DNA of 34,093 nucleotides, taken from positions 1 through 34,093 of the forward strand of contig NZ_JARXAB010000091.1 of NCBI RefSeq assembly GCF_029866045.1. Reading direction: 5' to 3'. This DNA comes from Ramlibacter sp. GTDB taxonomy: Bacteria > Pseudomonadota > Gammaproteobacteria > Burkholderiales > Burkholderiaceae_C. Shown in pieces: positions 4,623 through 33,407 of this stretch; position 1 is the stretch's first letter, and each line of letters begins with the position of its first letter. The translations under genes and the position numbers were made by a program. A model generated the notes under the pieces. It did not search any database. It saw nothing but the letters and a program-made list of their open reading frames with translations, and was not told the DNA's origin.

Positions 4623-4643
4623 GTCGACGTGGAGGAACGCACC

Positions 4644-5183
4644 ATGATCCACAGCACTTCCCGAGCTGTCCGGTTGGCCTGCTGGCTTATCGCCGGCCTG
4701 CTTGCTGGATGCGCGTCCGTCAAGCTGCCGCCGGTCACCGAGCCCGTACCGACTCCGACGGCCGCGGCAACTCCGGCAGCCAAGCCCCCGGTCGACCCAG
4801 CCGCGTCCAGCATGATCGCGCCGATGGTCGAGAAGCGCGACACCATCACCGCCACCGGCTATGCGGTGATTAGCGTGCAGAACCACCGCTTGCCGGCGCA
4901 ACAGCGCCTGATGGCGATCCGCGCCGCCAAGCTCGACGCTTACCGGTCCCTCACCGAGCAGGTGTTCGGCCAGCATTTGGACGCGTCCACCACGGTCGCC
5001 GACATGGTGGTGATGAACGACAGTTTCCGCACCCGCGTTGAAGGCGTGGTCTACGGTGCTGTTCTGGTGAGCATCACCCCGGTAGGCGAGGACTCCTACG
5101 AAACCACCCTGTCCTTGGACAGGCAGGTGGTGGCTGATCTTCGTACCCTTTACCTCGGCCAGTTGGCCGCCAAGCGCAAATGA
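4644..5183 (+). CDS. flgP: FlgP-like outer-membrane lipoprotein (LPP20 family)
   Basis: This 179-residue lipoprotein has a lipobox (LLAGC, Cys near residue 23) after a hydrophobic signal, then a Pro/Ala/Thr-rich linker to about residue 60. An LPP20-type domain follows (about 68-170), including ATGYAVISVQNHRLPAQQR and MAIRAAKLDAYRSLTEQV. In Vibrio and Campylobacter FlgP builds an outer-membrane-associated disk or ring round the basal body, the usual role of this family beside flagellar genes. The ATG at 4644 has GGAGG (4631-4635) eight bases upstream. Its stop overlaps the next start (ATGA), coupling it to the FlgT-like gene as in known flgOPT loci. No flgO is visible here. Confidence 0.78.
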   Translation: MIHSTSRAVRLACWLIAGLLAGCASVKLPPVTEPVPTPTAAATPAAKPPVDPAASSMIAPMVEKRDTITATGYAVISVQNHRLPAQQRLMAIRAAKLDAYRSLTEQVFGQHLDASTTVADMVVMNDSFRTRVEGVVYGAVLVSITPVGEDSYETTLSLDRQVVADLRTLYLGQLAAKRK

Positions 5184-6427
5184 GCCCCCGCCAGCTGGCC
5201 CCCGGCTGGCTGGTCGTGGTCAGCTGCCTGAGTGCCTGGCCCGCCGCGGCCCAGACGTCCGCCGCAAGTGCAGCCTCGGCGCCCCGAGCGGCCGCGTCAG
5301 CAGCCCCCGCAGCGGCCGCGTCCCGCACCGCGCGGCCACCGGCTCGCAAGCCGGCGGCAAAGGCGCCTGCCAAACCGGTGGCCGTTGCGGCCCCGGCTCC
5401 GTCGGCGGTAGCCAACACGCCCCCGACCGCCGCCCCGGCCTCTGGCCCTGCAGCCGCCGAGTTGGCTGTGCATGAACGCGAGCTTGACGCCATCCGCAGA
5501 GCACTTGTCGAGACTGCGGTATCGGCACCGGTCCGGGTCCAGTCCATCGGCTGGATAGACAGCCAAGGCCGGCTGCATGAAGAGAGCCAGTTCACCTCCG
5601 ACGCCCGGGTGCGTGGAGTGCGGGTTCAGGCCTATCTGGAAGATCCTGTCTCACCAAGCCCGCCAGCGCCCACCGTGAAGGTGGACCTCGAGGCGCTGCC
5701 GACTGGGGTCGGGCGACGCGTCGAATCCGATCCCGCGCAGTGCCTCGCCCGCAATGGCCGGTGGCGCCAAAATCTGCACCTGGAGGTGTTGGCGGTCCCC
5801 GGACTCGGAGGACCGCTGACAGCCCAGGCCGAACGCACTGCGCAAGCCCTTGTGCCACTGCTGACGGCAGCTGGCCAGGAGTCTCGCCGCTGGGTGCTAC
5901 GCCCACGCCCCTACCAGGCGGCAAGCGTCTACGAGCGCGCGCTGATCGGGCGTGAGGCCGACACTGTTGATTGGGTGGCACGCGTTTCCCTGATGTCCCG
6001 TGCCAGCGGCCAGCTGGAGGCTGAACTGCAGCTGCTACCCCAAGGGCATCTGGCGCCACCCAAGCGGCTGCGGCTGGCCCTGCCTGGGCCGCAGGCCTCA
6101 GCCGTGATGTGGGCTGAACGCATGGCCGAGTGGGTGGCCACGCTGGATCGCGAAACTGCGTGTGACCCTATGTGGTTCGCTGTCCAGGGTCAGGGCACCA
6201 GCCTGCGTCTGCGGGAGGGGGGCTCACACGGCCTGCAGGCCGGTGATCGGTTGCTGCTCGTTCGTCGGCAGCACCTGGGTGGCCGGCTGCTCGAGCCCGG
6301 TGCGGTACGCGCCACTGCCTTGTTGCAGGTGGAAGCTGGTGGCAGCACCGCCCTGCGCTGGCTGGCCGGTCTGCCCCCCGCAGCCGGCGGTGCCGCTGTC
6401 GACGACTGGGTCGCCCTGCCGCTTTGA
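5180..6427 (+). CDS. FlgT-like periplasmic flagellar H-ring protein
   Basis: This 415-residue secreted protein has an N-terminal signal peptide (hydrophobic core ending at PAAAQ, about residue 24) and an Ala/Pro-rich linker to about residue 92. Three folded-looking parts follow: about 93-155 (VRVQSIGWIDSQGRLHEES), a middle domain of about 185-310 and a C-terminal domain of about 330-415 with GLQAGDRLLLVRR. Three parts, placement after an FlgP-like gene and the ATGA overlap fit FlgT, which forms the H-ring and helps stator assembly in Vibrio. Sequence resemblance is weak and the long linker is unusual, so I leave the symbol blank. Structure prediction against Vibrio FlgT would settle it. Confidence 0.6.
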   Translation: MSPRQLAPGWLVVVSCLSAWPAAAQTSAASAASAPRAAASAAPAAAASRTARPPARKPAAKAPAKPVAVAAPAPSAVANTPPTAAPASGPAAAELAVHERELDAIRRALVETAVSAPVRVQSIGWIDSQGRLHEESQFTSDARVRGVRVQAYLEDPVSPSPPAPTVKVDLEALPTGVGRRVESDPAQCLARNGRWRQNLHLEVLAVPGLGGPLTAQAERTAQALVPLLTAAGQESRRWVLRPRPYQAASVYERALIGREADTVDWVARVSLMSRASGQLEAELQLLPQGHLAPPKRLRLALPGPQASAVMWAERMAEWVATLDRETACDPMWFAVQGQGTSLRLREGGSHGLQAGDRLLLVRRQHLGGRLLEPGAVRATALLQVEAGGSTALRWLAGLPPAAGGAAVDDWVALPL

Positions 6428-6452
6428 AAGATCCCCGACCGGAGTGCCTCTC

Positions 6453-7127
6453 ATGACTGTGTCCGTCCGCACTGATCACCCGACAGTTTTCGTATTGGGG
6501 GGCAGCCTGCTGCTCCTGGCAGCCCTCGGTGTGTGCCTGTCTTTGCCGGCGCACGCCGCTGACCCAGCTCCCGCTGCACCGAGCGCCGCCGCGCCGGCTC
6601 CCCCCTCTGCGGGCCCTGGCTCGGCTACCCGTGCGGCGGTGGTTTCAGAGGTTCCCTCTCCGGCGGCTCGGGTCGCCCTCGAGCAGCTGTTGGGTGCGCC
6701 CGCGGAGGCCGAACCAGGTGAGCCTGCGGCCGATGCGCGTACGACCACCGTCGTGCGCGCCGGCGAGACCCTCGATGTGATCATCCGCCGGACTCTGGGC
6801 AACACGCCCTTCAAGGAAAACCTGCTGCGCGCCGCCTTTGTGGAGGCCAACCCGCGCCTCTATCCAAACGGCAATATTCAGCGCCTGCCCAATGGCACGA
6901 AAGTCCAGGTCCCCTCCGCCGCCGACCTGCGCCGGCATCTGCTTCGGTCACTCGGACCCGAGCGGGCTGCGGCTCTGGCGGGTCGCACCAAGCCCGCAGT
7001 CACCAGTGCGCCGGATCCGGCGCCTGTCGTGGCCGCGGCGCCTCCGTCCAGTGCGGCAGCCACCCCTCCGTCCCCGCCCCCGCCACCTCGGCCCGACCAT
7101 CGCGGCTGGGTCCGCTTCCCGGGCTGA
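6453..7127 (+). CDS. FimV-type LysM domain protein
   Basis: This 224-residue protein has an N-terminal hydrophobic segment (about residues 14-32, ending AHA, a likely signal peptide), a Pro/Ala/Ser-rich linker and a LysM-like motif at about residues 98-150. The motif begins VVRAGETLDVIIRRTLG and ends NPRLYPNGNIQRLPNGTKVQVP, which resembles the FimV type, where N-P and G-N-I-x-x-L-x-x-G are typical. The tail is Pro/Ala rich. LysM domains bind peptidoglycan. GGAG (6441-6444) lies eight bases before the ATG. It sits 25 bp after the FlgT-like gene, where some loci carry flgO, so a periplasmic scaffold or polar-landmark role is possible but unproven. Confidence 0.68.
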   Translation: MTVSVRTDHPTVFVLGGSLLLLAALGVCLSLPAHAADPAPAAPSAAAPAPPSAGPGSATRAAVVSEVPSPAARVALEQLLGAPAEAEPGEPAADARTTTVVRAGETLDVIIRRTLGNTPFKENLLRAAFVEANPRLYPNGNIQRLPNGTKVQVPSAADLRRHLLRSLGPERAAALAGRTKPAVTSAPDPAPVVAAAPPSSAAATPPSPPPPPRPDHRGWVRFPG

Positions 7128-8283: not shown

Positions 8284-8586
8284 ATGCGACGCGGATCCCA
8301 CCCCTGGCGCGAGGCCGTGGCCTTGGCCTACGGCGAGCGCACCACCCCAGTCGTGACCGCTCGCGGCCAAGGTGAGGTGGCCGAGCGCATCATCGCAGAG
8401 GCCCAGCGGCAGGGCGTGCATGTGGCCCAGGATCCGGCGCTGCTTGCCTTGCTCTCACGGGTGGACATCGACCAGGAAATCCCGACCGAGGCCTACACCG
8501 CAGTGGCAGTGGTGCTGTCCTGGGTGTATTGGCTCAAGGGTATGCAGCCGGGGGACGAGAAGCGCGGCGGTTTTCCGCTGCGCTGA
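8284..8586 (+). CDS. FlhB C-terminal domain homologue (FlhX/YlqH-like)
   Basis: This 100-residue protein corresponds to the cytoplasmic tail of the export-gate protein FlhB after its normal self-cleavage. It aligns from AVALAYGERTTPVVTARG, where FlhB has N-P-T-H-Y-A-V-A-L, to IPTEAYTAVAVVLSWVYWLKG near the end. The N-P-T-H cleavage motif and all membrane helices are absent, and the N terminus is MRRGSHPWRE. Related small proteins in Salmonella can partly stand in for the cleaved FlhB tail. A GAGGGGAGA purine stretch precedes the ATG. It closes the operon that starts at fliS and faces flgN tail to tail; the 75-bp gap shows no convincing terminator. Confidence 0.82.
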   Translation: MRRGSHPWREAVALAYGERTTPVVTARGQGEVAERIIAEAQRQGVHVAQDPALLALLSRVDIDQEIPTEAYTAVAVVLSWVYWLKGMQPGDEKRGGFPLR

Positions 8587-9611: not shown

Positions 9612-10400
9612 TCATTGGCCGACCGCCTGGTTCTGACCGCTGATCTGGGCGCTCACAACGCGCCCCGAATCCCTGTTTCGCAGCCGGATGGTGTCGCCCA
9701 GCCGACCATCGTCGAGCGACTCGAGCCGGGCCGTCACCGCCAGTCCGGGCGTTGGCGCCCAGGTGGTGAGCACGGTGTTGCCACGCCGAACGGCCAGGGG
9801 TGTGGGCGGGGCGGCTGTCGGCGCGATGGCACCGGGCATCCAGGTGGTGGTCGGGAAGGTGGCGGGGACCGGTGCGGGGAAGGCGCCAGGCCGGGCACTC
9901 ACAGGGGCAGGCGCCGGGACGGCAGGCAGACCGTTTGCCATCGCCGGCGGAACCGGGTTGGGGCTGCCGGGAAAGACAGGGGTGGGCCTTGCAGCGGCGG
10001 CACCCCGGGGCAGGGACACGCTCAGGAAAAGTGACCATTGGGTGTCCTGGCAGCGTGCCCGGACCACACCGTCGTTCTGCGGGAAGGGTTTGTCGAAGGC
10101 CCATCCGGCCGCGCACCCGGCGACCAGCAGCCGTGGATCCAGGGGCTGGACCTGCACTGCCGACGCGCTGACCTGATGGATGCTGGCCACCCAGGCGCGC
10201 GCGCGCTGGACCACTTCCGGCTCCACCGCGCCGATCGGGGCCGGGTTGGCGCTGGCAGCCAGCGCGCAGGCCAGCCCCAGCACGCCGAGCGCGGTCTGGT
10301 GGGTCCAAAAGGCTCCTCCGATGGGCGGGGCAGGGCGCACCCCTGCCGGTGTTCCGGTGGCGGGGGTGTCGGTTCGCAGTAGAAAGTCAAGGCACGGCAT
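9612..10400 (-). CDS. flgA: Flagellar P-ring assembly chaperone FlgA
   Basis: FlgA is a periplasmic chaperone for FlgI P-ring assembly. This 262-residue protein has a hydrophobic signal segment (ALGVLGLACALAASA, about residues 37-51) after an unusually long N-terminal extension, then an FlgA-like N-terminal part. A stretch of about 75 residues very rich in Pro and Ala follows, then a typical FlgA C-terminal part from LAVRRGNTVLTTW to GDTIRLRNRDSGRVVSAQI. The SAF-type beta strands normally between these parts are not recognisable. The ATG at 10400 has CAGGAG seven bases upstream; an in-frame GTG at 10340 would shorten the extension but lacks that site. A sigma54-type promoter lies at 10472-10457. 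Confidence 0.82.
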   Translation of the reverse strand: MPCLDFLLRTDTPATGTPAGVRPAPPIGGAFWTHQTALGVLGLACALAASANPAPIGAVEPEVVQRARAWVASIHQVSASAVQVQPLDPRLLVAGCAAGWAFDKPFPQNDGVVRARCQDTQWSLFLSVSLPRGAAAARPTPVFPGSPNPVPPAMANGLPAVPAPAPVSARPGAFPAPVPATFPTTTWMPGAIAPTAAPPTPLAVRRGNTVLTTWAPTPGLAVTARLESLDDGRLGDTIRLRNRDSGRVVSAQISGQNQAVGQ

Positions 10401-10534: not shown

Positions 10535-11584
10535 ATGGACCTCCCACTGCCCTCCGCCGTTACCCCGGCCACAGTCACCGTACGCCGTGGCGACACGCTT
10601 GTTGGCCTGGTCAAGGCCCACTACAAGAGTCAGGGTGTCAACGTCGACGACCGCCAGGCCTTTCGAATGGCCCTGAGCGTGGCGCGCGGCAACGGGATTG
10701 CCGACGCGGCGCGTATCCAACCCGGCCAGTCTTTACGTATGGACGCGCTGCCCTTGGGTTCCGAACTGGCCAAAGGCGAGACGATGGCCGCTCCTGCCGT
10801 CGGAACTCCGTCACGGTCTCCGGCTGCGACAGCCTCGGTCAGCGTGGGCGCCCGTGGTCCTGCAGCGCCTTCGGCCGCCCAGGTCCTGGCCAACCGGCAG
10901 GCAACTGTCCCGGTGTTCGAGCGCACGCTCTCCCGCGCAGTCGAGCGCGGTTTCATTCCTGCCGCGGATGTGGACCAGGTGCGCGAGAAGGTGGGTCGCA
11001 TGGCCCGCGAGTATGGTTTCGACCCGGATGATTTCGCCCGTGTCGTGCTGATCGAGAGCGACGGCATGAACCCCAGCGCCAGCAACGGCCGCTGTCACGG
11101 GATCATCCAGTTCTGCGGCGGACCCGGCCGCGGCGCTGCCAGCGTGGGCTTCGCCAACAATGCGCAGGAAATCGCCAAGATGAGTGTGGTCCAGCAGCTC
11201 GACCTGGTGGACCGCTACTTCCAGGACGTGGGCATGCCGCGCAGCGGCGCCCGGACGATGGGGCTGGACGATCTCTACCTGTCGGTGCTCACTCCCGCAG
11301 CTCGCAGCCTGCGCGCCTCCGACGCGCCCCTCCCGATTCAGGGCAATCAGGCCCGCGTGCTGTACGAGGGCGGTCAGCGCGACGCGCCGATCACCCGCCG
11401 CTCCATCACCCAGGGGCTGATGCGCTATGCACAGGACCGCCTGCCCACGGCCGCCACGCAAATCAGCTCGCAGCTGTCGCAGCAAGTCTCCGCGGTTTCC
11501 GATCGCGTCAATGCCACGGCCACCGGCAGCAACTGGCCGTCGCAGCGGCAAATCATTGCCGCCAACACCGTCGAAAAGCCCTGA
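10535..11584 (+). CDS. LysM and lytic-transglycosylase-like protein
   Basis: This 349-residue protein has an N-terminal LysM-like module (about residues 13-70, starting VTVRRGDTLVGLVKAHYK and ending IQPGQSLRM), a Pro/Ala/Ser linker and a lysozyme/transglycosylase-like domain (about 125-300). In the latter, VLIESDGMNPSASNGRCHGI with Glu174 resembles the catalytic E-S-x-x-x-P motif of SLT and phage-type enzymes, and DLYLSVLTPAA follows. No signal peptide is visible, so export by the flagellar system, as for FlgJ, is a fair guess. The ATG at 10535 has AGGAG nine bases upstream. It lies between flgA and flgB, and the FlgJ encoded here lacks a hydrolase domain, so this is the best candidate for opening peptidoglycan for the rod. 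Confidence 0.75.
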   Translation: MDLPLPSAVTPATVTVRRGDTLVGLVKAHYKSQGVNVDDRQAFRMALSVARGNGIADAARIQPGQSLRMDALPLGSELAKGETMAAPAVGTPSRSPAATASVSVGARGPAAPSAAQVLANRQATVPVFERTLSRAVERGFIPAADVDQVREKVGRMAREYGFDPDDFARVVLIESDGMNPSASNGRCHGIIQFCGGPGRGAASVGFANNAQEIAKMSVVQQLDLVDRYFQDVGMPRSGARTMGLDDLYLSVLTPAARSLRASDAPLPIQGNQARVLYEGGQRDAPITRRSITQGLMRYAQDRLPTAATQISSQLSQQVSAVSDRVNATATGSNWPSQRQIIAANTVEKP

Positions 11585-11707: not shown

Positions 11708-12097
11708 ATGAAGATTTTGGACGGAGCCCTGGGCATCCACGGGCAGGCCCTCGCGGTCCGCACCAAGCGGCTTGAGTTGCTCGCGCAAAACTTGGCCAAC
11801 GCCGATACGCCGAACTTCAAGGCGCGCGACATCGACTTTCGCCAGGTACTGGCGGACACCAACAACCAGCCTGCCGCCATGACCGCCACCCGAGGCGCGC
11901 ACTACGAAGTGGGCGAGGTTGCCAATCCGGACGGGACGCTCTACCGCGTGCCCTTCAACACCGCGGTGGACGGCAACACGGTGGAAAGCAGTATTGAGCA
12001 GGCCCAGTACGGTAAGGCCGCCGCCCAGTACCAGACCACGCTGAACTTCCTTGAAAGCCGTATTTCCGGCGTGCGCAAGGCACTGCGCGGCGAATAA
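11708..12097 (+). CDS. flgB: Flagellar proximal rod protein FlgB
   Basis: FlgB forms part of the proximal rod in the periplasm. The 129-residue product begins MKILDGALGIHGQALAVRTKR and carries the rod-family motif NLANADTPNFKARDIDF at about residues 28-45. A helical C-terminal segment (YGKAAAQYQTTLNFLESRIS) packs in the rod core. I chose the ATG at 11708 because AAAGGAG lies just upstream; an in-frame start at 11654 would add residues without family resemblance. It is the first gene after the sigma54 promoter. Confidence 0.95.
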   Translation: MKILDGALGIHGQALAVRTKRLELLAQNLANADTPNFKARDIDFRQVLADTNNQPAAMTATRGAHYEVGEVANPDGTLYRVPFNTAVDGNTVESSIEQAQYGKAAAQYQTTLNFLESRISGVRKALRGE

Positions 12098-19216: not shown

Positions 19217-19804
19217 ATGAGCGACTCCAACGCCCCTCTCTCCGGCCTCGCCAAGCCCAGTGGCTACCACGACTTCAGTGGTCTGGCCGGCCTGCGCAGT
19301 GAGGCCGCGCGGGGTGCAGACAGCGCCCTGCGCGAGACCGCCAAGCAGTTCGAGGCTTACTTCATTCAGCAGACGATGAAGAGCATGCGGGAGTCGGTCG
19401 AGAAAAGTGACCTGTTCGACAACAACGAAACCGACATGTTCCAGGACATGATGGACAAGGAGGTCGCGGCCAAGATGGCCGAGCGCGGCTCCCTGGGCCT
19501 GGCCGACATGATCGAGCGCACCCTGACCCAGCGTCAGTTGCAGGCCACCCCGCCCAGCACCCAGGAGGTGCTGGCCGCCCGCGCCGGCTTGCCGCTGGTC
19601 CCGCCTGCCGCGCCGGTGTCGCTGACCCCGGTGGGTGTGCAGGGTCTGCCCTTGCCCCGTACGGGTGGACTTGCCCTGGACATGGGCCTGTACGGCCGTT
19701 CGCCGCAGCAGGGCCAGGCAGCGCCGGCCCTGGAGAGCGGCCAGACGCGGACCAACGGCACCACCGCGACCGGCACACGGGACTCTTCGGGAGTTGATCG
19801 GTGA
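19217..19804 (+). CDS. flgJ: FlgJ rod-binding protein lacking the hydrolase domain
   Basis: FlgJ caps and scaffolds rod assembly. The N-terminal rod-binding domain is clear: ALRETAKQFEAYFIQQTMKS, then DNNETDMFQDMMDKEVAAKM and GLADMIERTL (about residues 35-105). At 195 residues the protein ends in a Pro/Gly/Ala-rich tail and lacks the C-terminal glucosaminidase domain that FlgJ of enteric and most beta/gamma bacteria carries (usual length about 310). The stop overlaps the flgK start by GTGA. No frameshifted remnant of the missing domain is visible because flgK follows at once. Confidence 0.93.
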   Translation: MSDSNAPLSGLAKPSGYHDFSGLAGLRSEAARGADSALRETAKQFEAYFIQQTMKSMRESVEKSDLFDNNETDMFQDMMDKEVAAKMAERGSLGLADMIERTLTQRQLQATPPSTQEVLAARAGLPLVPPAAPVSLTPVGVQGLPLPRTGGLALDMGLYGRSPQQGQAAPALESGQTRTNGTTATGTRDSSGVDR

Positions 19805-25369: not shown

Positions 25370-26191
25370 ATGACCGTTATCAACACCAACACTGCGTCGC
25401 TTCGCGCGCAGCAAGCTTTGACTGTGAACAACAGGGCTCTCGGCAAGTCGATGGAGCAGCTCTCCACCGGCAAGCGGATCAACGCCGCCGGCGATGACGC
25501 GGCGGGCCTGGCCATCAGTAACAAGATGACCGCGCAGATTCGCGGCCTGAATCAGGGCGTGCGCAACGCCAACGACGCGATCTCGATGATTCAGACGGCG
25601 GAAGGCGCAACCACCGAAGTCACCAACATGCTCCAGCGCATGCGTGAACTGGCTGTGCAGTCGGCCAACGGCAGCTACTCCTCCGACGACAGGACCGCCC
25701 TCCAGTCTGAGTTTTCCGAGCTGCAGGCCGAAATCTCCCGCATCTCCAGCAACACCGAGTGGAACGGCACCAAGATCGCCGACGGCACGATGACCGCGGT
25801 GAATTTCCAGGTCGGCGCCAACTCCAGCCAGGTGATCACGGTGACCTTCAAGGACATCGATGGCATGACCGGCGTGGCCACCGCGATCACCGCGACGATC
25901 GGCACCATCACGGGCGCCAACACGTCCATCAGCGCTGTGGATACCGCCCTGGCGGCGATCGACAGCTTCCGCAGCGACATGGGCGCGAAGATCAACCGCC
26001 TGACCTATGCGGCCGACAACCTGACCAACGTCGCGACCAACACCGGTGCCTCGCGCAGTCGCATCCTGGACACCGACTACGCGAAGGCGACGACCGAGCT
26101 GGCCCGCACGCAGATCATCCAGCAGGCAGCGACGGCCATGCTGGCTCAGGCCAACCAGCAGCCCCAGACGGTTCTGTCGCTGCTGCGCTGA
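25370..26191 (+). CDS. fliC: Flagellin FliC, copy 1
   Basis: This 273-residue flagellin has the conserved N-terminal half (MTVINTNTASLRAQQALTVN, then SMEQLSTGKRINAAGDDAAG) and C-terminal half (NTGASRSRILDTDYAKATTE, ending MLAQANQQPQTVLSLLR). The middle is very short, so outer domains D2/D3 are almost missing. A strong AAAGGAG site precedes the ATG. It is about 80% identical by eye to the second copy 377 bp downstream, with a stretch of near-identical DNA (25737-25860 against 26938-27061). A glycosylation operon lies downstream, so its surface Ser/Thr residues may carry sugars. Confidence 0.95.
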   Translation: MTVINTNTASLRAQQALTVNNRALGKSMEQLSTGKRINAAGDDAAGLAISNKMTAQIRGLNQGVRNANDAISMIQTAEGATTEVTNMLQRMRELAVQSANGSYSSDDRTALQSEFSELQAEISRISSNTEWNGTKIADGTMTAVNFQVGANSSQVITVTFKDIDGMTGVATAITATIGTITGANTSISAVDTALAAIDSFRSDMGAKINRLTYAADNLTNVATNTGASRSRILDTDYAKATTELARTQIIQQAATAMLAQANQQPQTVLSLLR

Positions 26192-26409
26192 TGACTGAGC
26201 CCGGACGCCACCTCGCCCCAGACGGAGAACCGGGCCGGGCGGGTGATGGGATAAGCACAGACGATGGCAGCGCTGCCCCTGCATGGTTCTGGAGCGTTCG
26301 CGACAGAACCCTCGAGGACGAACTCTCCCGCCGTGCGCGGGAGCTGCTAGCGCAGGGCGCTGGGGCCGCCCTCCTGGTGGCCGGCGTGGGCAGGCGGTCG
26401 GCGTCTTGA
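26191..26409 (+). CDS. Possible small gene overlapping the fliC1 stop
   Basis: A 72-codon frame starts at an ATG that overlaps the fliC1 stop (TGATG at 26189-26193), the arrangement of coupled genes. The product begins MTEPGRHLAPDG and has a possible helix (TLEDELSRRARELLAQGAGA). I do not recognise it. It has rarer codons (AGA, ATA, CTA) and a lower share of G/C at third positions than the flagellins, which argues against a conserved gene. The 26192-26567 interval otherwise holds two inverted repeats (GGTTCTG/CAGAACC at 26285-26310; CTCCCGC/GCGGGAG at 26325-26343) and the fliC2 promoter. Confidence 0.2.
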   Translation: MTEPGRHLAPDGEPGRAGDGISTDDGSAAPAWFWSVRDRTLEDELSRRARELLAQGAGAALLVAGVGRRSAS

Positions 26410-26442
26410 GTGCCGAGAGAGCAGAAAAAATTCTCTTAGCCC

Positions 26443-26467
26443 TCAAGTCCCGGCCCCTGGCGCCGAT
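26443..26467 (+). promoter_or_regulatory. Sigma28 (FliA) promoter upstream of fliC2
   Basis: TCAAGT (26443-26448), 13 bases, GCCGAT (26462-26467) followed by TC. It lies about 100 bases before the fliC2 ATG, and an A/T-rich stretch (26423-26437) lies just upstream and could act as an UP-like element. Confidence 0.87.
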
Positions 26468-26567
26468 TCACTTAACGAGGAAGTGAAGAACTAACTTCCG
26501 CAAACCCAATAGCCGACCCGTTCATCAGGGCCTGCACCAAACGGAAACGAACCGAAGGAGTATTTGA

Positions 26568-27398
26568 ATGTCTACCGTGATCAACACGAACACCAAGTCG
26601 CTCATCGCCCAGCAGGCCCTGAACGTGAACAACCGTGGGCTCTCCAAGGCCATGGAGCAGCTTTCCACCGGCAAGCGGATCAACACCGCGGCCGACGATG
26701 CTGCCGGCCTGGCCATTAGCAACAAGATGACCTCGCAGATTCGCGGTCTCACCCAGGGCGTTCGCAACGCCAACGACGCGATCTCGATGATCCAGACGGC
26801 GGAAGGCGCGACCAACGAAGTCACCAACATGCTCCAGCGCATGCGTGAACTGGCGGTGCAGGCCGCCAACGGCACCTACAATACTGAGGACCGCACCTCG
26901 CTGCAGTCTGAGTTTTCCGAGCTGCAGGCTGAAATTACCCGCATCTCCAGCAACACCGAGTGGAACGGCACCAAGATCGCCGACGGCACGATGACCGCGG
27001 TGAATTTCCAGGTCGGCGCTAACTCCAGCCAGGTGATCACGGTGACCTTCAAGGACATCGACGGGATGACGGGCATGACCACCGCCATCGTTTCAGCCTC
27101 CATCAGTTCCGTGGGTGTCGCCAACTCGGCGATCAGCGCGGTAGACACCGCCCTGGCGACGATCGACAGTTTCCGCAGCGACATGGGCGCGAAGATCAAC
27201 CGCCTGACCTATGCAGCCGACAACCTGACCAACGTGATGACCAACACCGGCGCCTCGCGCAGCCGCATCCTGGACGCTGACTACGCCAAGACGGCGACCG
27301 ATCTGGCCCGCACGCAGATCATCCAGCAAGCGGCCACCGCCATGCTGGCCCAGGCCAACCAAGAGCCGCAGAGCGTGCTGTCCCTGCTCAAGGGCTGA
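26568..27398 (+). CDS. fliC: Flagellin FliC, copy 2
   Basis: This 276-residue flagellin is closely related to copy 1, with the same short middle. It begins MSTVINTNTKSLIAQQALNV and ends QANQEPQSVLSLLKG. Differences concentrate at about residues 170-190 (SASISSVGVANSAIS against TIGTITGANTSIS) and at scattered N-terminal sites. GAAGGAG precedes the ATG. Its promoter matches the consensus better than that of copy 1, so it may be the more strongly expressed subunit. A strong terminator follows 28 bp after the stop. Confidence 0.95.
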   Translation: MSTVINTNTKSLIAQQALNVNNRGLSKAMEQLSTGKRINTAADDAAGLAISNKMTSQIRGLTQGVRNANDAISMIQTAEGATNEVTNMLQRMRELAVQAANGTYNTEDRTSLQSEFSELQAEITRISSNTEWNGTKIADGTMTAVNFQVGANSSQVITVTFKDIDGMTGMTTAIVSASISSVGVANSAISAVDTALATIDSFRSDMGAKINRLTYAADNLTNVMTNTGASRSRILDADYAKTATDLARTQIIQQAATAMLAQANQEPQSVLSLLKG

Positions 27399-27426
27399 TG
27401 GACATGAGGCCCTCCGGGGCCTTGGC

Positions 27427-27462
27427 AAGAAAAAGGGGCGCCTGTCGGCGCCCCTTTTTCTT
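27427..27462. terminator. Bidirectional rho-independent terminator between fliC2 and the maf gene
   Basis: A perfect 16-bp stem (27427-27442 with 27447-27462) surrounds the loop TGTC. The core is GGGGCGCC/GGCGCCCC, flanked by an A-run and a T-run (CTTTTTCTT), so it can end transcripts from both sides. It lies between the converging fliC2 and maf genes. Confidence 0.95.
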
Positions 27463-27490
27463 GGGTGACGGCGAGACTGGCCGGCTGGGA

Positions 27491-29308
27491 TCAGGCCAGC
27501 AGGGAGTCGAGCAGGGCTGGATCTGGCCGTCCCTTGATCTGAATATCGCGGTAGAAATCCGCCAGCTTGTCCAGCAGATCGCAGCTGACCTCGCAGGCCT
27601 CCTGAATGCTCTGATAGACCTCTCGGTAGCGCAGGATCGCGTCATTCAGTGAGCGGTCTTCATCCTCTTCCTGCTTGATCACGCCGTAGCGGATCGCCTC
27701 CAGACGCGCGCCGCTGCAGGCGTCGACCAGATGCTTGGCGTGTCGGCTGAAGTCCTTGAGCCGCTTGTTGATCCTGTCGATATCGCGCAGGCGGCGAGTC
27801 TGACCGCCTTGCGCCTTGCCTCGGGTCAGGGCCTGGGCGCGGGACGCCAGTTCCCCATACTCGACGACCAACTCCCGCAGCATCGCCAGCTGCTGGAGCA
27901 ACTGGGTCATCTGCTCCTGATCCAGGTACTCGGGTGTTGCCGGCGGGTGGGGTTCCTTGCGCAGGCTGGTCATGCCGATGTGCTCGCACACCTGTGCAAA
28001 CGGGATCTGCAAGCTGCCGGCAATGCGCGCGCCCCCTTCGGTGGCGTTGATCACCATGACCTCGGGCAACTCCTTGAAGCGCTCTTCGAACCAGGCCTTG
28101 TAGGCAAGCAGCTGCCGCTCTGTACGCACCCGGTCGCCGTAGTAGCCCTCGACGTCATAGCCTTTGTCCGAACGACCTTGCAGCATTTCGGAGGAGTAGG
28201 TGAAGAGGTAGCCGTCGGCATGGTCCTTGCCGCCCGTCAGGGCCAGGTCCTGCCCGATTAGGACGATGGGGTTGGCGCCCATATGGACGGCCATGTTGAA
28301 CGCCAAGGTGGCGACCGAGCCTCCCACGCCCAGCCGACCTGGCCGGGCACCGAGGAATCCCAGCGTCTCGGCGATGTGGCCGTCGGCGCAGGTCATGATG
28401 TGACCCCGGTCATGGCTCCAGACCATATTGGGCGAGGCGATCATGTCGGTCACCAGCCGGGTGTGGGGGGAGAGCCCGTCCCGCGGCCAGGAAGGCGGCG
28501 TGACCGGATCGAGCGCCACCAGATAGTCCGGAACGATGCCGTGGGTGTTCAGAATCGGCCAGACCGTGTCGACCGCGAAAATCGTGAACAGGTGCTGGTT
28601 CTGCGCCAGCAGTGGCAGCTGCTTGTTCAGGGAGGGGCCCGCCGAAACGATCAGGGCCGGGCGCTGGTCCAGGGTTTTGTGCAGGGGGGCGATGCCATCG
28701 GGCCCATACGCCCAGGGCGCGTTGAGAAAGGCGCTCAGAAGAAACCGCCCGCCCATCGTGAGCCGGGTCGATTTGAGCATGATCCGGGTGTTCAACCGCG
28801 AACTCACGAGGCGAAGCAGGTCGCGGGCTGTTTCCGGCGCCTGCTGCACAAGCGCCTGGCTGAACAGTGGCTTCCAGCCGTCGATGGTGTCGATGTCGAT
28901 CAGACCCGCCAGCGCACCACTTCGGTTGGCCAAGGTACCGCCAACGACGATATGCAGTTGGCCCTTCTTGATCAGCGCCGCCAGCTGCGTTCGTTGTTCC
29001 GCATCCAGCCCGGTGCTACCGACCGGCTGCGGGTCCACCACCACAAGGCGTGAGGTCGGGGTGATGCGCCCGAGCAAATCAGTCAGCGTGTCCGGATGTG
29101 GCGCGCCGTAAAGCATCCAGAGCTGCCGCGGCTGCGCCCATGGCGAAGGTGTCGCCAGATCCTCCAGAGAGGTCGGCAGTGCCGGCGCGGCCCCTGGGGC
29201 CGCGTACGCACGGTCCAATTCATCAGCGTTGCCTTCGCCGATGACCAGCACGGGATCGTCAGGGGACTCGGACGGAGGAAGGGGGAGGGGGAGGGGGTCG
29301 CGTTTCAT
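27491..29308 (-). CDS. maf: Maf-type flagellin glycosyltransferase
   Basis: Motility-associated factors transfer nonulosonic acids (pseudaminic or legionaminic type) to Ser/Thr of flagellin in the cytoplasm. This 605-residue protein has the Maf/MptE-like core (about residues 200-400): PALIVSAGPSLNKQLPLL, then DYLVALDPVTPP, and GGSVATLAFNMAVHMGANPI followed by VLIGQDLALTGGKDHADGY. These match the family's nucleotide-sugar fold. A helical C-terminal domain follows. It is the last gene of the operon, 15 bp after the fused aminotransferase gene, and lies next to the flagellins. Identity as a Maf is strong; the exact sugar is inferred from neighbours. Confidence 0.88.
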   Translation of the reverse strand: MKRDPLPLPLPPSESPDDPVLVIGEGNADELDRAYAAPGAAPALPTSLEDLATPSPWAQPRQLWMLYGAPHPDTLTDLLGRITPTSRLVVVDPQPVGSTGLDAEQRTQLAALIKKGQLHIVVGGTLANRSGALAGLIDIDTIDGWKPLFSQALVQQAPETARDLLRLVSSRLNTRIMLKSTRLTMGGRFLLSAFLNAPWAYGPDGIAPLHKTLDQRPALIVSAGPSLNKQLPLLAQNQHLFTIFAVDTVWPILNTHGIVPDYLVALDPVTPPSWPRDGLSPHTRLVTDMIASPNMVWSHDRGHIMTCADGHIAETLGFLGARPGRLGVGGSVATLAFNMAVHMGANPIVLIGQDLALTGGKDHADGYLFTYSSEMLQGRSDKGYDVEGYYGDRVRTERQLLAYKAWFEERFKELPEVMVINATEGGARIAGSLQIPFAQVCEHIGMTSLRKEPHPPATPEYLDQEQMTQLLQQLAMLRELVVEYGELASRAQALTRGKAQGGQTRRLRDIDRINKRLKDFSRHAKHLVDACSGARLEAIRYGVIKQEEDEDRSLNDAILRYREVYQSIQEACEVSCDLLDKLADFYRDIQIKGRPDPALLDSLLA

Positions 29309-29323
29309 GGCTGGTCAATCGTG

Positions 29324-31354
29324 TCAGTTGAGGCGCTTGAAGCCGGCATGGCAGATGGGGCCCCGCAGTAGCGCATGGACGTCCTGTGCGCCTTGCTGGC
29401 AGGACTTGATGAGGCCGAAGACGGGGTCGAGGGCCTCAAAGTAGCTGTCGATGACTTCCGGGGTATGGGCGGTACAGGCGTAGATGCTGTTGGCCGCCAG
29501 GTAGCCCTTTTGCAGCATCTCCTGGGTGAGCAGGGTCTTCCAGGCGAGTGCGTCGGCCCCTTGGAAGCTGAAGCCGGTGAGGGCCGGCAGGCCCCAGTGG
29601 GAAATGGCCAGGCCATGGCGGTCGGCCATGGCTTGCCAGCGCCGGCGGACCTCCAGGCCGATCGCGGTGATCGTCTCCCAGGAGCGCTCGCGCTCCATGA
29701 CCTCCAACGTCCGCAGGGCGGCCGTGGGCCCGATGCGCTCAGTCCAGAAGGTGCTGCTGATGAAGGTCGATTGGGCCGCCTCCATGACCTCGCGCCGTCC
29801 GATGGTGGCGGTGATCGCATAGCCGTTGCCCAGTGCTTTACCGAACATGGCCATATCGGGCTCGACCCCGTAGAGCTTGTGAAGGCCGCCCATGGTCTGG
29901 CGAAAGCCCGAGGTGCATTCGTCGAAGATCAGCACGATGCCGCGCTCTGTCGCCAACTGGCGCACCCGATGCAGAAAGTCACCCTGGGGTCCCTCGTTGC
30001 GCGAGACCTCCATCTTGATCACGCCGATCTCGTTGGCGTCGACCAGGGCTTGCAGTTGTTCAAACTTGTTGTACTCGAAGGGCAAGACTGTTCCGCGCAG
30101 GTTGCGTGGCACGCCCTTGGGCTCTAGACCTGGCAACAGATGCCCGTCGAGGTTGGCGTCGTCGGCCAGGTTCGCCGACAGGTACCAGTCGTGCCAGCCG
30201 TGGTAACCGCAGATGGCGACCTTGTCACGACCCGAGGCCGCACGGGCGATCCGCACGGCGATGGCATTGGCCTCACCGCCTGAGCGCGCAAGCCGGGCCA
30301 TGTCGGCCCAGGGATGGAGTTCGACCAGCTTCTCGGCCAGGTACACCTCCTCGGGGCAGTTGAGCGTGGACATGTTGCCAGCCTGGACCGTCTGCATGAC
30401 AGCGGCATCTACCTCAGCATGACCATAGCCCAGGGTGTTGGTCCCGATGCCCATGATGGACATGTCGATGTAGCGCTTGCCATCGAGGTCCCACACCTCG
30501 CAGCCCTTGGCCTTAGAGAAATAGGCAGGCCATTGCTCCGGAAGGAACATCTCCGCCCGTTTGGACAGCAGCATGTTGCCGCCCGGGATGACGTGTCGCG
30601 CGCGTTTCCAGAGTTTCTGACCCGTGCTCATCGTGGCTCCCTCGTTTCTCTCAATATCCTGATTGGCCCGAAATATCTCGGGCTCCCGGCGCTGCAGGTC
30701 CAACACCTGAGTCCATGAAAAATGGATGTCCGGCGCGAATCGCTCGAACACTTGGCGTACGACCGCGTAGTCGGCGGGTTCGTCGACAGTCCAGCGCAGG
30801 TGGGCCAGGTCGCCCGGACACTGGAGGGCTGACTGTGTGAACAGGTCGGCCCTTCGCAGGTAAGGGGTGACATGCTCGCGGTCATGCGGCGTGGTCGCTT
30901 CCCGTCCGGCGCGCTCGAGCGCGCTGCGGCGAAAAACCTCCACATCCAGACCATCGGGGTAGGCGGGAGGCCCCGCGTTCCCCAGGTAGTCGACATTGCG
31001 GGTGCGAAATTCCTGCACGCACTGGTCCACCAACGCCGGGTCGACCAGGGGGCAGTCACCGGTGATTCGCACCAGGGTGTCGGCGTCGGTCAATTGGCAG
31101 GCCGAAAGGTAGCGGGCCAGCACGTCGGCCTCGTCACCCTGGACGCAGGCGTAGCCCAGGTCGCGCACCAACTCGACGAGCGGGGCGTTGGCAGGGTCCA
31201 CAGAGGTGGCGACGATGATCTGATCGATCTCGACTGCCCGCGACAGGCGCGCGAGCAGCACCTCCATCATCGCCTGATGGCCAATGGGTAGCATGACCTT
31301 GCCCGGGAGTCGGGTTGAGCCCATGCGGGCCTGAACGATGGCCGCGACGGTCAC
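29324..31354 (-). CDS. Fused SpsF-type cytidylyltransferase and class III aminotransferase
   Basis: One 676-residue frame joins two enzymes. Residues 1-241 form an SpsF/NeuA-like cytidylyltransferase, which activates acidic sugars with CMP: AAIVQARMGSTRLPGKVMLP and VRITGDCPLVDP. Residues 242-676 form a PLP aminotransferase of the glutamate-1-semialdehyde type, with ARHVIPGGN, LIFDECTSGFR (Asp478) and FGKALGNG (PLP Lys506). The GTG start overlaps the upstream reductase stop (GTGA). The joint carries its own ribosome-binding site and ATG (30631), so a free aminotransferase may also be made. The aminotransferase could add an amino group to a precursor sugar; the substrate is unknown. Confidence 0.85.
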   Translation of the reverse strand: MTVAAIVQARMGSTRLPGKVMLPIGHQAMMEVLLARLSRAVEIDQIIVATSVDPANAPLVELVRDLGYACVQGDEADVLARYLSACQLTDADTLVRITGDCPLVDPALVDQCVQEFRTRNVDYLGNAGPPAYPDGLDVEVFRRSALERAGREATTPHDREHVTPYLRRADLFTQSALQCPGDLAHLRWTVDEPADYAVVRQVFERFAPDIHFSWTQVLDLQRREPEIFRANQDIERNEGATMSTGQKLWKRARHVIPGGNMLLSKRAEMFLPEQWPAYFSKAKGCEVWDLDGKRYIDMSIMGIGTNTLGYGHAEVDAAVMQTVQAGNMSTLNCPEEVYLAEKLVELHPWADMARLARSGGEANAIAVRIARAASGRDKVAICGYHGWHDWYLSANLADDANLDGHLLPGLEPKGVPRNLRGTVLPFEYNKFEQLQALVDANEIGVIKMEVSRNEGPQGDFLHRVRQLATERGIVLIFDECTSGFRQTMGGLHKLYGVEPDMAMFGKALGNGYAITATIGRREVMEAAQSTFISSTFWTERIGPTAALRTLEVMERERSWETITAIGLEVRRRWQAMADRHGLAISHWGLPALTGFSFQGADALAWKTLLTQEMLQKGYLAANSIYACTAHTPEVIDSYFEALDPVFGLIKSCQQGAQDVHALLRGPICHAGFKRLN
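30629..30643 (-). promoter_or_regulatory. Internal ribosome-binding site and start at the fusion joint
   Basis: On the minus strand GAGGGA (30643-30638) lies six bases before an in-frame ATG (30631-30629). The ATG opens a 435-residue product matching the usual N terminus of glutamate-1-semialdehyde-type aminotransferases. No stop codon separates it from the upstream domain. Confidence 0.6.
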
Positions 31355-32226
31355 AAGGTACCCCAGGCTGCGGGGTTGAGGATCCGGGGTTCGAACTCCG
31401 GCCAGCGAGGCCCTTCGTCAAGAGGAGCCCCCGCGATCGCCAAGACTTGCCGCAACTGCTCTGGGCTGTCAAACCCGAGGACGATCTTTTCGACCTGAGG
31501 CACCGCCATGAGGAATCGGATGCAGGCCTCGACCGCGGACAGGTTCCGTTGGCCGAGCCAAGCCTGCCAAAAGTCCCAAAGATGTTGCCATGCGGGGAAC
31601 CGGTCGCGTTGCACCTGCTGGTCGAGAAGCAAGCCTTGAAGGAAGGCCGAGCGGGCGTGGAGCGCCACACCTTGGTCAGCGAGCCGTGTTGCCCAGCCGG
31701 AGGTGAGCATGCGACGGTCCAGAATGCTCAGGGGCGCCTGCACCAGGTCAAACCGGTGGACCGCCATCAGGGCGGGCAACTCCGCAGGGTCGTAGATCGA
31801 GACACCTATGGCTTGTGCGGCGCCTGCTTGCTGCAAATCTCGGAGGGCACCCAGGAGGGCTGGCCCCATGGGCTCCAGCAACTGACCCGGGCGATGCAAG
31901 AGCAAACCGCTCAGGGGCCTTGCACCCAGGCCAAGCCGGGCGCGGCTCTGTGCGACCTGAGCATGGATCCAGGCCGCCACGTCCGATACGGAGTCCGGAA
32001 CAGGCGGCAATTTGGTCACGACCTGCCAGCCCTCTAGCTCGCATCGGCCCAAGACCGACTCGCTCTGACCGTAGGCCATGGCGGTGTCGACGGTGTCCAC
32101 CCCTAGGGAACGGGCGGTGCAAAGGATGGCCTGGGCCTTTTCCTGGGGGACCTGTCCCGCCCGGTTGGTCACACCATAGTCGAGCCCGAACTGGGCGGTA
32201 CCCAGGGCGAGCCGCTGACCTATCAC
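31351..32226 (-). CDS. Aldo/keto reductase family protein in the glycosylation operon
   Basis: This 291-residue protein has the aldo/keto reductase fold signature. LALGTAQFGLDYGVTN comes first, then VDTVDTAMAYGQSE (catalytic Asp and Tyr), VVTKLP (Lys) and LLLHRP (His), which complete the usual tetrad. IGVSIYDPAELPAL and the final KIVLGFDSPEQL are typical later parts. Such enzymes reduce aldehydes or ketones with NAD(P)H. Its GTG start overlaps the pseC stop and its stop overlaps the fused gene start, so it is tightly coupled to sugar synthesis. A role in reducing a keto-sugar intermediate is inferred. Confidence 0.85.
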   Translation of the reverse strand: MIGQRLALGTAQFGLDYGVTNRAGQVPQEKAQAILCTARSLGVDTVDTAMAYGQSESVLGRCELEGWQVVTKLPPVPDSVSDVAAWIHAQVAQSRARLGLGARPLSGLLLHRPGQLLEPMGPALLGALRDLQQAGAAQAIGVSIYDPAELPALMAVHRFDLVQAPLSILDRRMLTSGWATRLADQGVALHARSAFLQGLLLDQQVQRDRFPAWQHLWDFWQAWLGQRNLSAVEACIRFLMAVPQVEKIVLGFDSPEQLRQVLAIAGAPLDEGPRWPEFEPRILNPAAWGTL

Positions 32227-33407
32227 GGCGTCACCCCGGTGAGCGCCTTCTCCAGGCAGGCGACGATCCAGTCCTGGTCGTCGTCAGTCAGATCAGGGTA
32301 GAGGGGCAGGCTCATCGCCTCCGCGTAGTAGCGTTCGGACTCAGGCAGGGCAGGGGCGCTGGAGCCTCTTCGTTCCCGGTGGTAGGGCTGCATGTGAACC
32401 GGGATGTAGTGCAGGTTGACGCCGATACCGTTTTCACGCAGTTGCGAGAAAACCTCCGAGCGGCTGGCGTTGCCAGGCGTCTCGGGCAGACGGACGATGT
32501 AGAGGTGCCAGCTCGAGTGACCTTCGGGATGCTGCCAAGGGCGGATGACAGGCAGTCCTTCGAGCAGGCGGTCATAGCGTGCAGCCAAGGCGCGCCGCCG
32601 CTCGACGAAGGCGTCTAGCCTTCGCATTTGGCTCAGGCCAAGCGCTGCGTGCAGGTCACTGAGCCGATAGTTCAGGCCCAGGGCCAGTTGCTGGTAGTAC
32701 CAGGGACCGTGGCTGGGCTCGTCCATCTCCGCGGGCTCGCGTGTGATGCCGTGGCTACGCAGTAACGCCATTTGCTGCGCCAGACCCAGATCTTGGGTGA
32801 GGGCGGCGCCACCTTCGCAAGTGGTGATGATTTTTACCGGGTGAAAACTCAGCACCGTGATGTCGCTGTAGCGGCAATTGCCCACTGGCTCTCCGAGGTA
32901 CTCAGCGCCTACCGCGTGTGAGGCATCCTCGATGATCTTGACACCATGGCGGCGTCCCAGGGCGCTGATGGCGGCCATTTCACAGGGCTGGCCGGCCAAG
33001 TGAACTGGAATGATGACCTTGGGCAGGCATCCCTGCGCCGCCGCCTGCGCCAGCTGCTGCTCCAGTGCAGTCGGACTCATGTTGTAGGTGATCGGGTCAA
33101 TGTCGACGAAATCGACCGAGGCCCCGCAGTACAAGGCGCAGTTGGCCGAGGCGACAAAGGTGATCGGAGTGGTCCAGACGCGGTCGCCGGGGCCTACCCC
33201 CAAGGCCAGACAGGCCAGGTGCAGGGCGCTCGTCGCGCTGTTGACCGCGACGGCGTGGGTGACGCCGAACCGTGCCCCCAGTGCCGCCTCAAAGGCAGGA
33301 ACCGCGGGGCCCTGCGTCAGCCAGTCGCCTCGCAGGACACGCGTGACCGCAGCGATGTCCTCGTCATCGATACTCTGGCGCCCATAGGGAATGGTGCGGC
33401 GGGTCAT
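32223..33407 (-). CDS. pseC: UDP-4-keto-6-deoxy-AltNAc 4-aminotransferase PseC
   Basis: PseC catalyses the second step of pseudaminic acid synthesis, adding an amino group at C4 from glutamate using PLP. The 394-residue product is of the DegT/DnrJ/EryC1 family: IPYGRQSIDDEDI at the N terminus, VAVNSATSALHLA, VIIPVHLAGQP, IIEDASHAVGAEY (Asp161 near the PLP ring) and SFHPVKIITTCEGGA with PLP Lys192. These match PseC more closely than related ArnB-type enzymes. It starts two bases after the pseB stop and its stop overlaps the reductase start. Confidence 0.9.
   Translation of the reverse strand: MTRRTIPYGRQSIDDEDIAAVTRVLRGDWLTQGPAVPAFEAALGARFGVTHAVAVNSATSALHLACLALGVGPGDRVWTTPITFVASANCALYCGASVDFVDIDPITYNMSPTALEQQLAQAAAQGCLPKVIIPVHLAGQPCEMAAISALGRRHGVKIIEDASHAVGAEYLGEPVGNCRYSDITVLSFHPVKIITTCEGGAALTQDLGLAQQMALLRSHGITREPAEMDEPSHGPWYYQQLALGLNYRLSDLHAALGLSQMRRLDAFVERRRALAARYDRLLEGLPVIRPWQHPEGHSSWHLYIVRLPETPGNASRSEVFSQLRENGIGVNLHYIPVHMQPYHRERRGSSAPALPESERYYAEAMSLPLYPDLTDDDQDWIVACLEKALTGVTP

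Follow-up and report, generated by a model that had tools for sequence, protein, structure and literature searches.

A candidate flagellum-dedicated lytic transglycosylase encoded between flgA and flgB, beside a FlgJ without its hydrolase half, in a Ramlibacter flagellar locus

The 34,093-nucleotide stretch of Ramlibacter sp. DNA analyzed here, called the window throughout, contains an open reading frame located between the divergent flgA gene and flgB. The genomes compared with it carry G numbers, and the loci or contigs compared carry L numbers. The features of this region are as follows.

10535-11584, plus strand: candidate flagellum-dedicated lytic transglycosylase of 349 aa, without a Sec-like start (the 349-aa protein)
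9612-10400, minus strand: flgA, divergent neighbor; PF13144 (ChapFlgA), E 7.6e-9; ATG at 10400 read from the sequence
11708-12097, plus strand: flgB, downstream neighbor, 129 aa; PF00460; start chosen by comparison with L003
10390-10405, plus strand: sigma54-like -24/-12 site AGGCACGGCATTTGCA, matching 11 of 12 consensus positions and overlapping the flgA start codon

An AGGAG ribosome site precedes the frame. The PF13144 and PF00460 matches of its neighbors bear out the position between flgA and flgB given in an earlier note on this DNA, which had also proposed a possible sigma54 promoter. GGCAC-N5-TTGC-like sites with 9 to 11 of the 12 consensus positions were found within 260 bases upstream of all 19 homologous genes scanned, versus 386 of 3800 base-shuffled upstream stretches that scored at least 9 of 12. 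In L120 and L121 the site lies just 11 bases before the chosen start, and either that start or the site may be wrong.

The 349-aa protein combines two regions, and its features are listed below.

10574-10744, plus strand: LysM-like module, residues ~14-70; Pfam LysM E 0.0084, under the cut-off in the window copy
10964-11314, plus strand: phage-type transglycosylase domain, residues 144-260, with matches to phage families
11054-11056, plus strand: codon of Glu174, the predicted catalytic acid, present in 21 of 21 homologues and in four aligned phage proteins, and aligned with the SLT-motif Glu
11093-11116, plus strand: CHGIIQFC, residues 187-194, putative motif of the cleft, including two Cys; CHG[IV]IQFC in 21 of 21 homologues

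The description of the protein as a LysM module plus a transglycosylase-like domain with Glu174 was thus upheld for both parts: LysM is weak in the window copy, but 14 of 16 homologues gave a Pfam match to it, the best with E 1.3e-6, and the catalytic region has phage transglycosylases as relatives. That region matched phrog_4928 (E 7.9e-11) and the baseplate hub family phrog_196 (E 8.2e-9), and eight of the 16 homologues matched the 'transglycosylase' family phrog_4602; endolysin families were matched too. PDB entry 9udh, a 'lytic transglycosidase', was matched with an E value of 4.7e-4 (4.4e-3 by profile), and a tblastn search with the 349-aa protein returned 13 phage records, the best with E 2e-11. 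Glu174 is the Glu of VLIESDGMNP. Its loss in orthologues was looked for as a result that would speak against the assignment, and the surrounding motif, PDDFA...E..G.NP, is kept in 21 of 21 homologues. When five homologues were aligned with four phage proteins, the invariant residues included Glu174, Asn184, Gly189, Ile191-Gln192-Phe193, Tyr228, Tyr248 and Pro254-Ala255. Profile-profile comparison with four transglycosylase-type phage proteins gave 99.3% (E 1.5e-20), a partly circular value, the phage set having been found using the 349-aa protein itself. The same type of comparison with the five SLT proteins of its own genome gave a probability of 21.5% only, and in it Glu174 and GIIQF align with the SLT-motif Glu and GLMQ.

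No Pfam enzyme model matched residues 144-260 in the window copy or in 16 homologues. Among those 16, PF01464 (SLT) found no match, and neither PF10135 nor PF01832 matched the 349-aa protein in Pfam; in NCBIfam no wall-enzyme model was found, only two weak matches far under the cut-off. Two AlphaFold models built from three near-identical rows (window, L002 and L003) were poor, with a mean pLDDT of 48.0 for the full length and 49.2 for the catalytic part, and a Foldseek search with such a model found nothing (best E 1.6) and carries no weight. By its family matches and profile comparisons the catalytic domain is of phage type rather than of SLT type. Transglycosylase activity is likely. The cysteines C187 and C194, which flank GIIQF, are invariant in the 21 homologues; a similar pair is found in one of the four aligned phage enzymes (L138) and is absent from the other three. 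They might possibly form a disulfide.

The flgJ gene of the same locus encodes only one half of a two-domain FlgJ, as follows.

19217-19804, plus strand: flgJ, rod-binding half only, 195 aa; PF10135 E 3.7e-17, without PF01832; matches TIGR02541 at positions 3-102 of 294 only

No Pfam hydrolase model matched this frame, in agreement with the earlier statement that FlgJ carries the rod-binding half alone. We also searched the rest of the genome for a separate full-length FlgJ and found none, with one PF10135 match and zero matches to the PF01832 glucosaminidase domain in a draft assembly (3.85 Mb in 182 contigs, 5.1% contamination) that is 93.0% complete and could at that level miss a gene. Five PF01464 proteins are encoded on other contigs and, as judged by eye, are general Slt70-/MltD-like or signal-bearing enzymes. 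As for a separate SltF that would do this job, any of the five SLT proteins might serve.

Close copies of the gene were found in the same place in two metagenome-assembled genomes, L002 (Ramlibacter sp., 97%) and L003 (Comamonadaceae bacterium, 89%). Two of 61 near relatives searched carried the gene; one genome of that draw, G006, belongs to the window's genus and has the gene in the same place as L002, and the two were counted once. When 399 genomes of the family were searched by profile, the gene was identified in 15 of them, from six genera, at E < 1e-60; another five of the 20 matching genomes (G067, G248, G290, G320 and G323) had short matches only and were dropped. Among 349 genomes of the order, seven matched at E < 1e-99, of which two were already known and five were new, in two more families (G534; G576, G671, G700 and G728), while 37 of the 44 matching genomes were dropped for E > 1e-10 and short matches near the N-terminal/LysM end. 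In searches beyond the order at E values up to 1e-8 (185 genomes of the class and 175 of the phylum), the window's own genome alone matched, and no origin outside Burkholderiales was found in these genomes. Plasmids gave no match to the enzyme gene, and one scan of viral contigs gave 58 pattern matches and 0 confirmed relatives.

Twenty-one loci from three families of Burkholderiales were read (the window, L002, L003, L018, L036-L045, L049, L050 and L119-L123); the gene of G406, on a contig of 3251 bases, was left out of this synteny scan. A conserved linkage with short flgJ genes was found. The order flgA-gene-flgB holds in 18 of the 21 loci, and in the other three (L045, L049 and L050) a contig end leaves one neighbor visible. 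In the 15 loci where flgJ is visible, PF10135 was the sole Pfam family matched by each FlgJ frame at E values up to 0.01, and the frames, counted from the first start codon, are 157 to 200 aa long (195 in the window). One of the matches dropped in the order search, a minus-strand frame of G718 (L126:1-750) from a further family, has a signal-less N-terminus with FRAVL followed by a LysM that the contig end cuts off, with no catalytic part visible; it may be a further case.

We then compared the distribution of the gene with that of the FlgJ domains in the 399 family genomes, in which PF10135 was found in 314 and PF01832 in 312. Among the matches listed, 11 genomes had PF10135 without PF01832 (G000, G140, G152, G160, G243, G275, G301, G319, G382, G386 and G443), and the gene was present in 8 of these 11 versus 5 of the 303 genomes with both domains; the Fisher p of 9.5e-11 is a description rather than a probability, as the genomes are related and the handles were compared by eye. 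In four of the five genomes with the gene and both domains (G147, G220, G345 and G427) the PF01832 match sits outside the linked FlgJ, and the fifth (G183), where FlgJ is close to the end of its contig, could be of either kind. Of these genomes, G220 and G427 carry a rod-only FlgJ plus a second, two-domain FlgJ on another contig (C72/C37 and C297/C242, respectively), and probably have two flagellar kinds side by side. Two of the 15 gene-positive genomes (G369 and G406) had no PF10135 match. Short FlgJ frames without the gene among the matches listed (G207, G087 and G063) had PF01832 elsewhere or in a neighboring frame. Besides the window's genome, the family set included five members of its genus; three lacked PF10135 (G021, G257 and G451) and two had both PF10135 and PF01832 (G331 and G018).

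In a tree of FlgI, 18 rod-only loci were split from 24 two-domain loci with support of 100/100 and stems of 1.25 and 0.96 changes per column. The rod-only set comprised 15 loci with the gene plus G323, G443 and G301, whose contig stops before flgB; the two-domain loci were picked for long FlgJ frames, so that the tree asks about lineage separation and not frequency. Distances of the enzyme (last 250 aa) agreed with those of FlgI over 13 loci (Mantel r 0.90, with 0 of 5000 permutations as high). The tree split and this agreement indicate that the enzyme gene goes with one flagellar gene lineage. A recent loss of the hydrolase half from an ordinary betaproteobacterial FlgJ was considered and rejected, as the rod-only loci are a separate flagellar lineage in the FlgI tree.

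Some genomes depart from this pattern. G323 and G443 belong to the rod-only lineage by FlgI and have a rod-only FlgJ of 158 aa, and nothing was found between their flgA and flgB genes. G323 encodes the following protein elsewhere.

L082:4942-6105, minus strand: LysM-GH73 protein of G323, 387 aa, with the FlgJ hydrolase half; TIGR02541 positions 110-292, 212.9 bits (cut-off 193), E 8.5e-63

This frame has a weak LysM match (E 0.0026), and its N-terminus contains FSQTL but lacks a hydrophobic stretch. Its gene is found outside the flagellar cluster, with miaA-like and nuo-like genes, as judged by eye, for neighbors. No relative of it was found in G443, G160 or G301. PF01832 was not found anywhere in G443, whose flagellum may do without a dedicated enzyme or may use a general one; another genome, G160, has PF10135 with neither PF01832 nor the enzyme gene. 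The results for G323 and G443 thus show the FlgJ enzyme in the layout of the 349-aa protein in one relative, and no dedicated enzyme was found in another. G323 also encodes a LysM protein with a GDSL acylhydrolase domain and a similar signal-less N-terminus with an FxxxPhi pattern (L046:9062-10132; also in L047, G248). By eye, its gene is near MBOAT/AlgX-like and GH73-like genes, and none of the scanned flagellar genes is nearby.

Sec signals were judged by the highest hydropathy of any 12-residue stretch within the first 45 aa. Starts were set by ribosome site or by comparison for 19 N-termini (at GTG in L018, L039 and L123), and L045 and L049, without N-termini, were excluded. The 19 homologues scored from -0.58 to 1.16, versus 2.05-2.62 over the same span for four controls, FlgI, FlgH, the LPP20-like protein and a neighboring window protein. 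FlgA, also used as a control, reached 0.73 over these 45 aa and 2.36 when its first 80 aa were taken, and five axial proteins gave 0.45-1.29 over the 45 aa. A Sec signal peptide on the 349-aa protein is therefore unlikely, as had been claimed before.

We next considered the flagellar gate as a way out. Its recognition motif presumably has the form FxxxPhi, in which Phi was taken as L, M, I, V or F. The motif by which early substrates of the flagellum dock at FlhB is located at residues 36-40 of Salmonella FlgD and 39-43 of FlgE (PMC8983047, PMC10936197). The corresponding pattern in the window copy is given below.

10661-10675, plus strand: F43-RMA-L47, FxxxPhi pattern, inside LysM in the window copy; putative gate recognition motif

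FxxxPhi occurs within residues 21-60 in 19 of 19 homologues, versus 3.8 expected by shuffling; the shuffle rate ranges from 7 to 53% per sequence, and the 19, drawn from about eight genera, are not independent. Among the 10 aligned sequences that have an N-terminal extension, which is otherwise variable, the Phe occupies a single column. The stretch before LysM is 18 aa long in the window copy versus 44-125 aa in the nine extended relatives measured; the window clade (window, L002 and L003) lacks the extension, and in the two short-start groups, this clade and L120 with L121, the FxxxPhi lies inside LysM and may be there by chance. The extreme N-terminus, where early substrates carry small non-polar residues, reads MDLPLPSAV in the window copy, a stretch looked at by eye only. 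FxxxPhi was also found in the rod and hook proteins of the window, at residues 49 of FlgB, 50 of FlgC, 40 and 44 of FlgD, 42 of FlgE, 34 and 38 of FlgF and 41 of FlgG (numbered in frames that start five residues early for FlgB and three early for FlgE), and not within 60 aa in the late proteins FlgM and FlgK. The pattern is not specific, as it is present in the cytoplasmic chaperone FlgN of the window (residues 10 and 14) and in the LysM-GDSL protein encoded outside the flagellar locus, and alone it proves nothing about export. The idea of the earlier note that the protein may leave through the flagellar channel is favored for the family, with no Sec-like start and FxxxPhi in 19 of 19 members, whereas the window copy, with its short stretch before LysM and with F43-L47 inside that module, is a weaker case. 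Overall, export by the flagellar gate is judged somewhat more probable than not.

Together these data suggest, on balance, that the 349-aa protein is a flagellum-dedicated peptidoglycan cutter and probably a transglycosylase exported by the type III route; the dedicated role taken by itself is quite probable. Made in the cytoplasm without a Sec signal, the protein would be recognized by the flagellar type III gate through its N-terminal FxxxPhi as an early substrate of the rod/hook class. It would then travel through the growing rod and refold in the periplasm, where LysM would bind glycan strands and the phage-type domain with Glu174 would cleave the glycan, letting through the rod together with the hydrolase-less FlgJ that caps it. 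Export at this early stage and contact with FlgJ would both be parts of such a scheme, which is built from the sequence data described above. The proposal that this protein is the missing hydrolase is thus well supported, on comparative grounds, by the linkage in 18 of 21 loci, the rod-only FlgJ in 15 of 15, Glu174 in 21 of 21 and the lack of a full-length FlgJ, and is weakened by G323 and G443, which have no such gene. More broadly, though this is a tentative view to which we give slightly less than even credence, a deep flagellar lineage of Burkholderiales might have split the cap from the cutter, the latter being a separate early gate substrate in which a gate motif and LysM are combined, cassette-like, with an exchangeable hydrolase. 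Equally tentatively, the hydrolase would be a phage-derived transglycosylase in most members and, in at least one (G323), the glucosaminidase half that has come away from FlgJ.

The 349-aa protein might be a dedicated transglycosylase that crosses the membrane by another route, through an unrecognized signal or after release, rather than by the flagellar gate. The missing extension in the window clade fits this explanation, as does the use of Sec by the known separate flagellar enzymes SltF and BB0259 (PMC7277832, PMC8517470). However, no hydrophobic segment was detected in the first 45 aa of 19 homologues, with 1.16 as the maximum, and FxxxPhi is kept in all of them, if inside LysM in the two short-start groups, and we consider such a route unlikely. 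It is also rather improbable that a general SLT-family enzyme serves as the rod hydrolase, with the 349-aa protein as an accessory. Although its own genome has five PF01464 proteins, and G323 and G443 manage without the gene, the linkage of the gene to rod-only FlgJ across three families and the invariant catalytic motif argue against this explanation.

Two other explanations place the protein outside flagellar assembly. Early type III substrates can leave the cell, and a LysM protein with a lytic domain, with LysM-GDSL and LysM-GH73 relatives, might be secreted by the flagellar route to attack the walls of other bacteria; nevertheless, the gene stands at the head of the rod operon and goes with the rod-only FlgJ, which makes this very improbable. 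Finally, the nearest enzyme domains found are those of phages, as would be expected of a stray endolysin gene that landed by chance in a flagellar cluster. Such an origin is scarcely credible for a gene that is found at the same place in 18 of 21 loci, has its own LysM and covaries with FlgI, and the viral contig scan confirmed no relative.

The preferred reading, a dedicated and probably type III-exported transglycosylase, can be compared with systems already described. The two-domain FlgJ of beta- and gammaproteobacteria (TIGR02541) similarly ties a hydrolase to the rod cap, and it is itself a flagellar export substrate. It differs in being one protein with GH73, whereas here there are two proteins, with an enzyme of another family and the rod-binding domain in a separate 195-aa FlgJ. 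The phage-type transglycosylases (phrog_4602, phrog_4928, phrog_196 and PDB 9udh) share the catalytic domain with the Glu and GxIQF motifs, to which the 349-aa protein adds the LysM fusion and the flagellar tie. The LysM-GH73 protein of G323 resembles it in the lack of a hydrophobic start, in FxxxPhi, in the order of LysM then wall hydrolase and in a rod-only FlgJ in the same genome, but it is a glucosaminidase and not a transglycosylase, and it is encoded at a distance from the flagellar genes.

SltF of Rhodobacter (Cereibacter) sphaeroides is a separate lytic transglycosylase from the flagellar operon that is paired with a FlgJ without hydrolase half, is exported by Sec and is modulated by rod proteins (PMC7277832). 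SltF carries a Sec signal as well as an SLT domain and uses its C-terminus to bind FlgJ, whereas the 349-aa protein lacks a Sec-like start and a PF01464 match and combines LysM with a phage-type domain. In Borrelia burgdorferi, BB0259 (LTase-Bb) is likewise a separate transglycosylase alongside a single-domain, rod-only FlgJ; E580 is named as its catalytic residue, and the protein differs from ours in its 717 aa, its predicted lipobox and Sec signal and its C-terminal SLT domain (PMC8517470). The same paper mentions two-protein arrangements as proposed for delta- and epsilonproteobacteria and spirochetes and assigns a dual-domain FlgJ to most beta- and gammaproteobacteria (PMC8517470). The 349-aa protein shares the division of labor with SltF and BB0259 and differs in enzyme family, LysM, the lack of a Sec-like start and its occurrence in Burkholderiales. 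It would work like SltF and FlgJ yet belongs to neither. A literature search, made mostly without subscription papers, found no paper describing the flgA-flgB enzyme gene.

These observations touch on the question of how flagella, and injectisomes, keep the cutting of the wall to the place where they are being built. An enzyme that leaves by Sec, as SltF does, moves freely in the periplasm and has to be controlled there; if our reading is true, delivery down the flagellar channel would itself limit where the enzyme acts. A lineage in which the enzyme is present, swapped (G323) or not found (G443) makes confinement by delivery testable. The data also suggest that flagellar assembly took over a lysis domain of phage type.

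Other parts of the window contain further genes, listed here.

4629-6427: LPP20-like lipoprotein, then a protein without Pfam match; both conserved upstream of fliK in related loci
6162-7127 (start probably later): protein with weak Phage_tail_X/FimV-core (LysM-like) similarity, adjoining fliK and conserved in related flagellar loci
8284-8586: C-terminal domain of FlhB as a protein of its own, 100 aa, matching PF01312 positions 258-335; its place beside fliK is kept in related loci
25370-33407: two flagellin genes, then minus-strand genes for an MptE-like protein, a cytidylyltransferase-aminotransferase fusion, an aldo/keto reductase and a DegT aminotransferase

Two relatives of the protein at 6162-7127 were scanned and gave no Pfam match. 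The block at 25370-33407 probably serves flagellin sugar modification.
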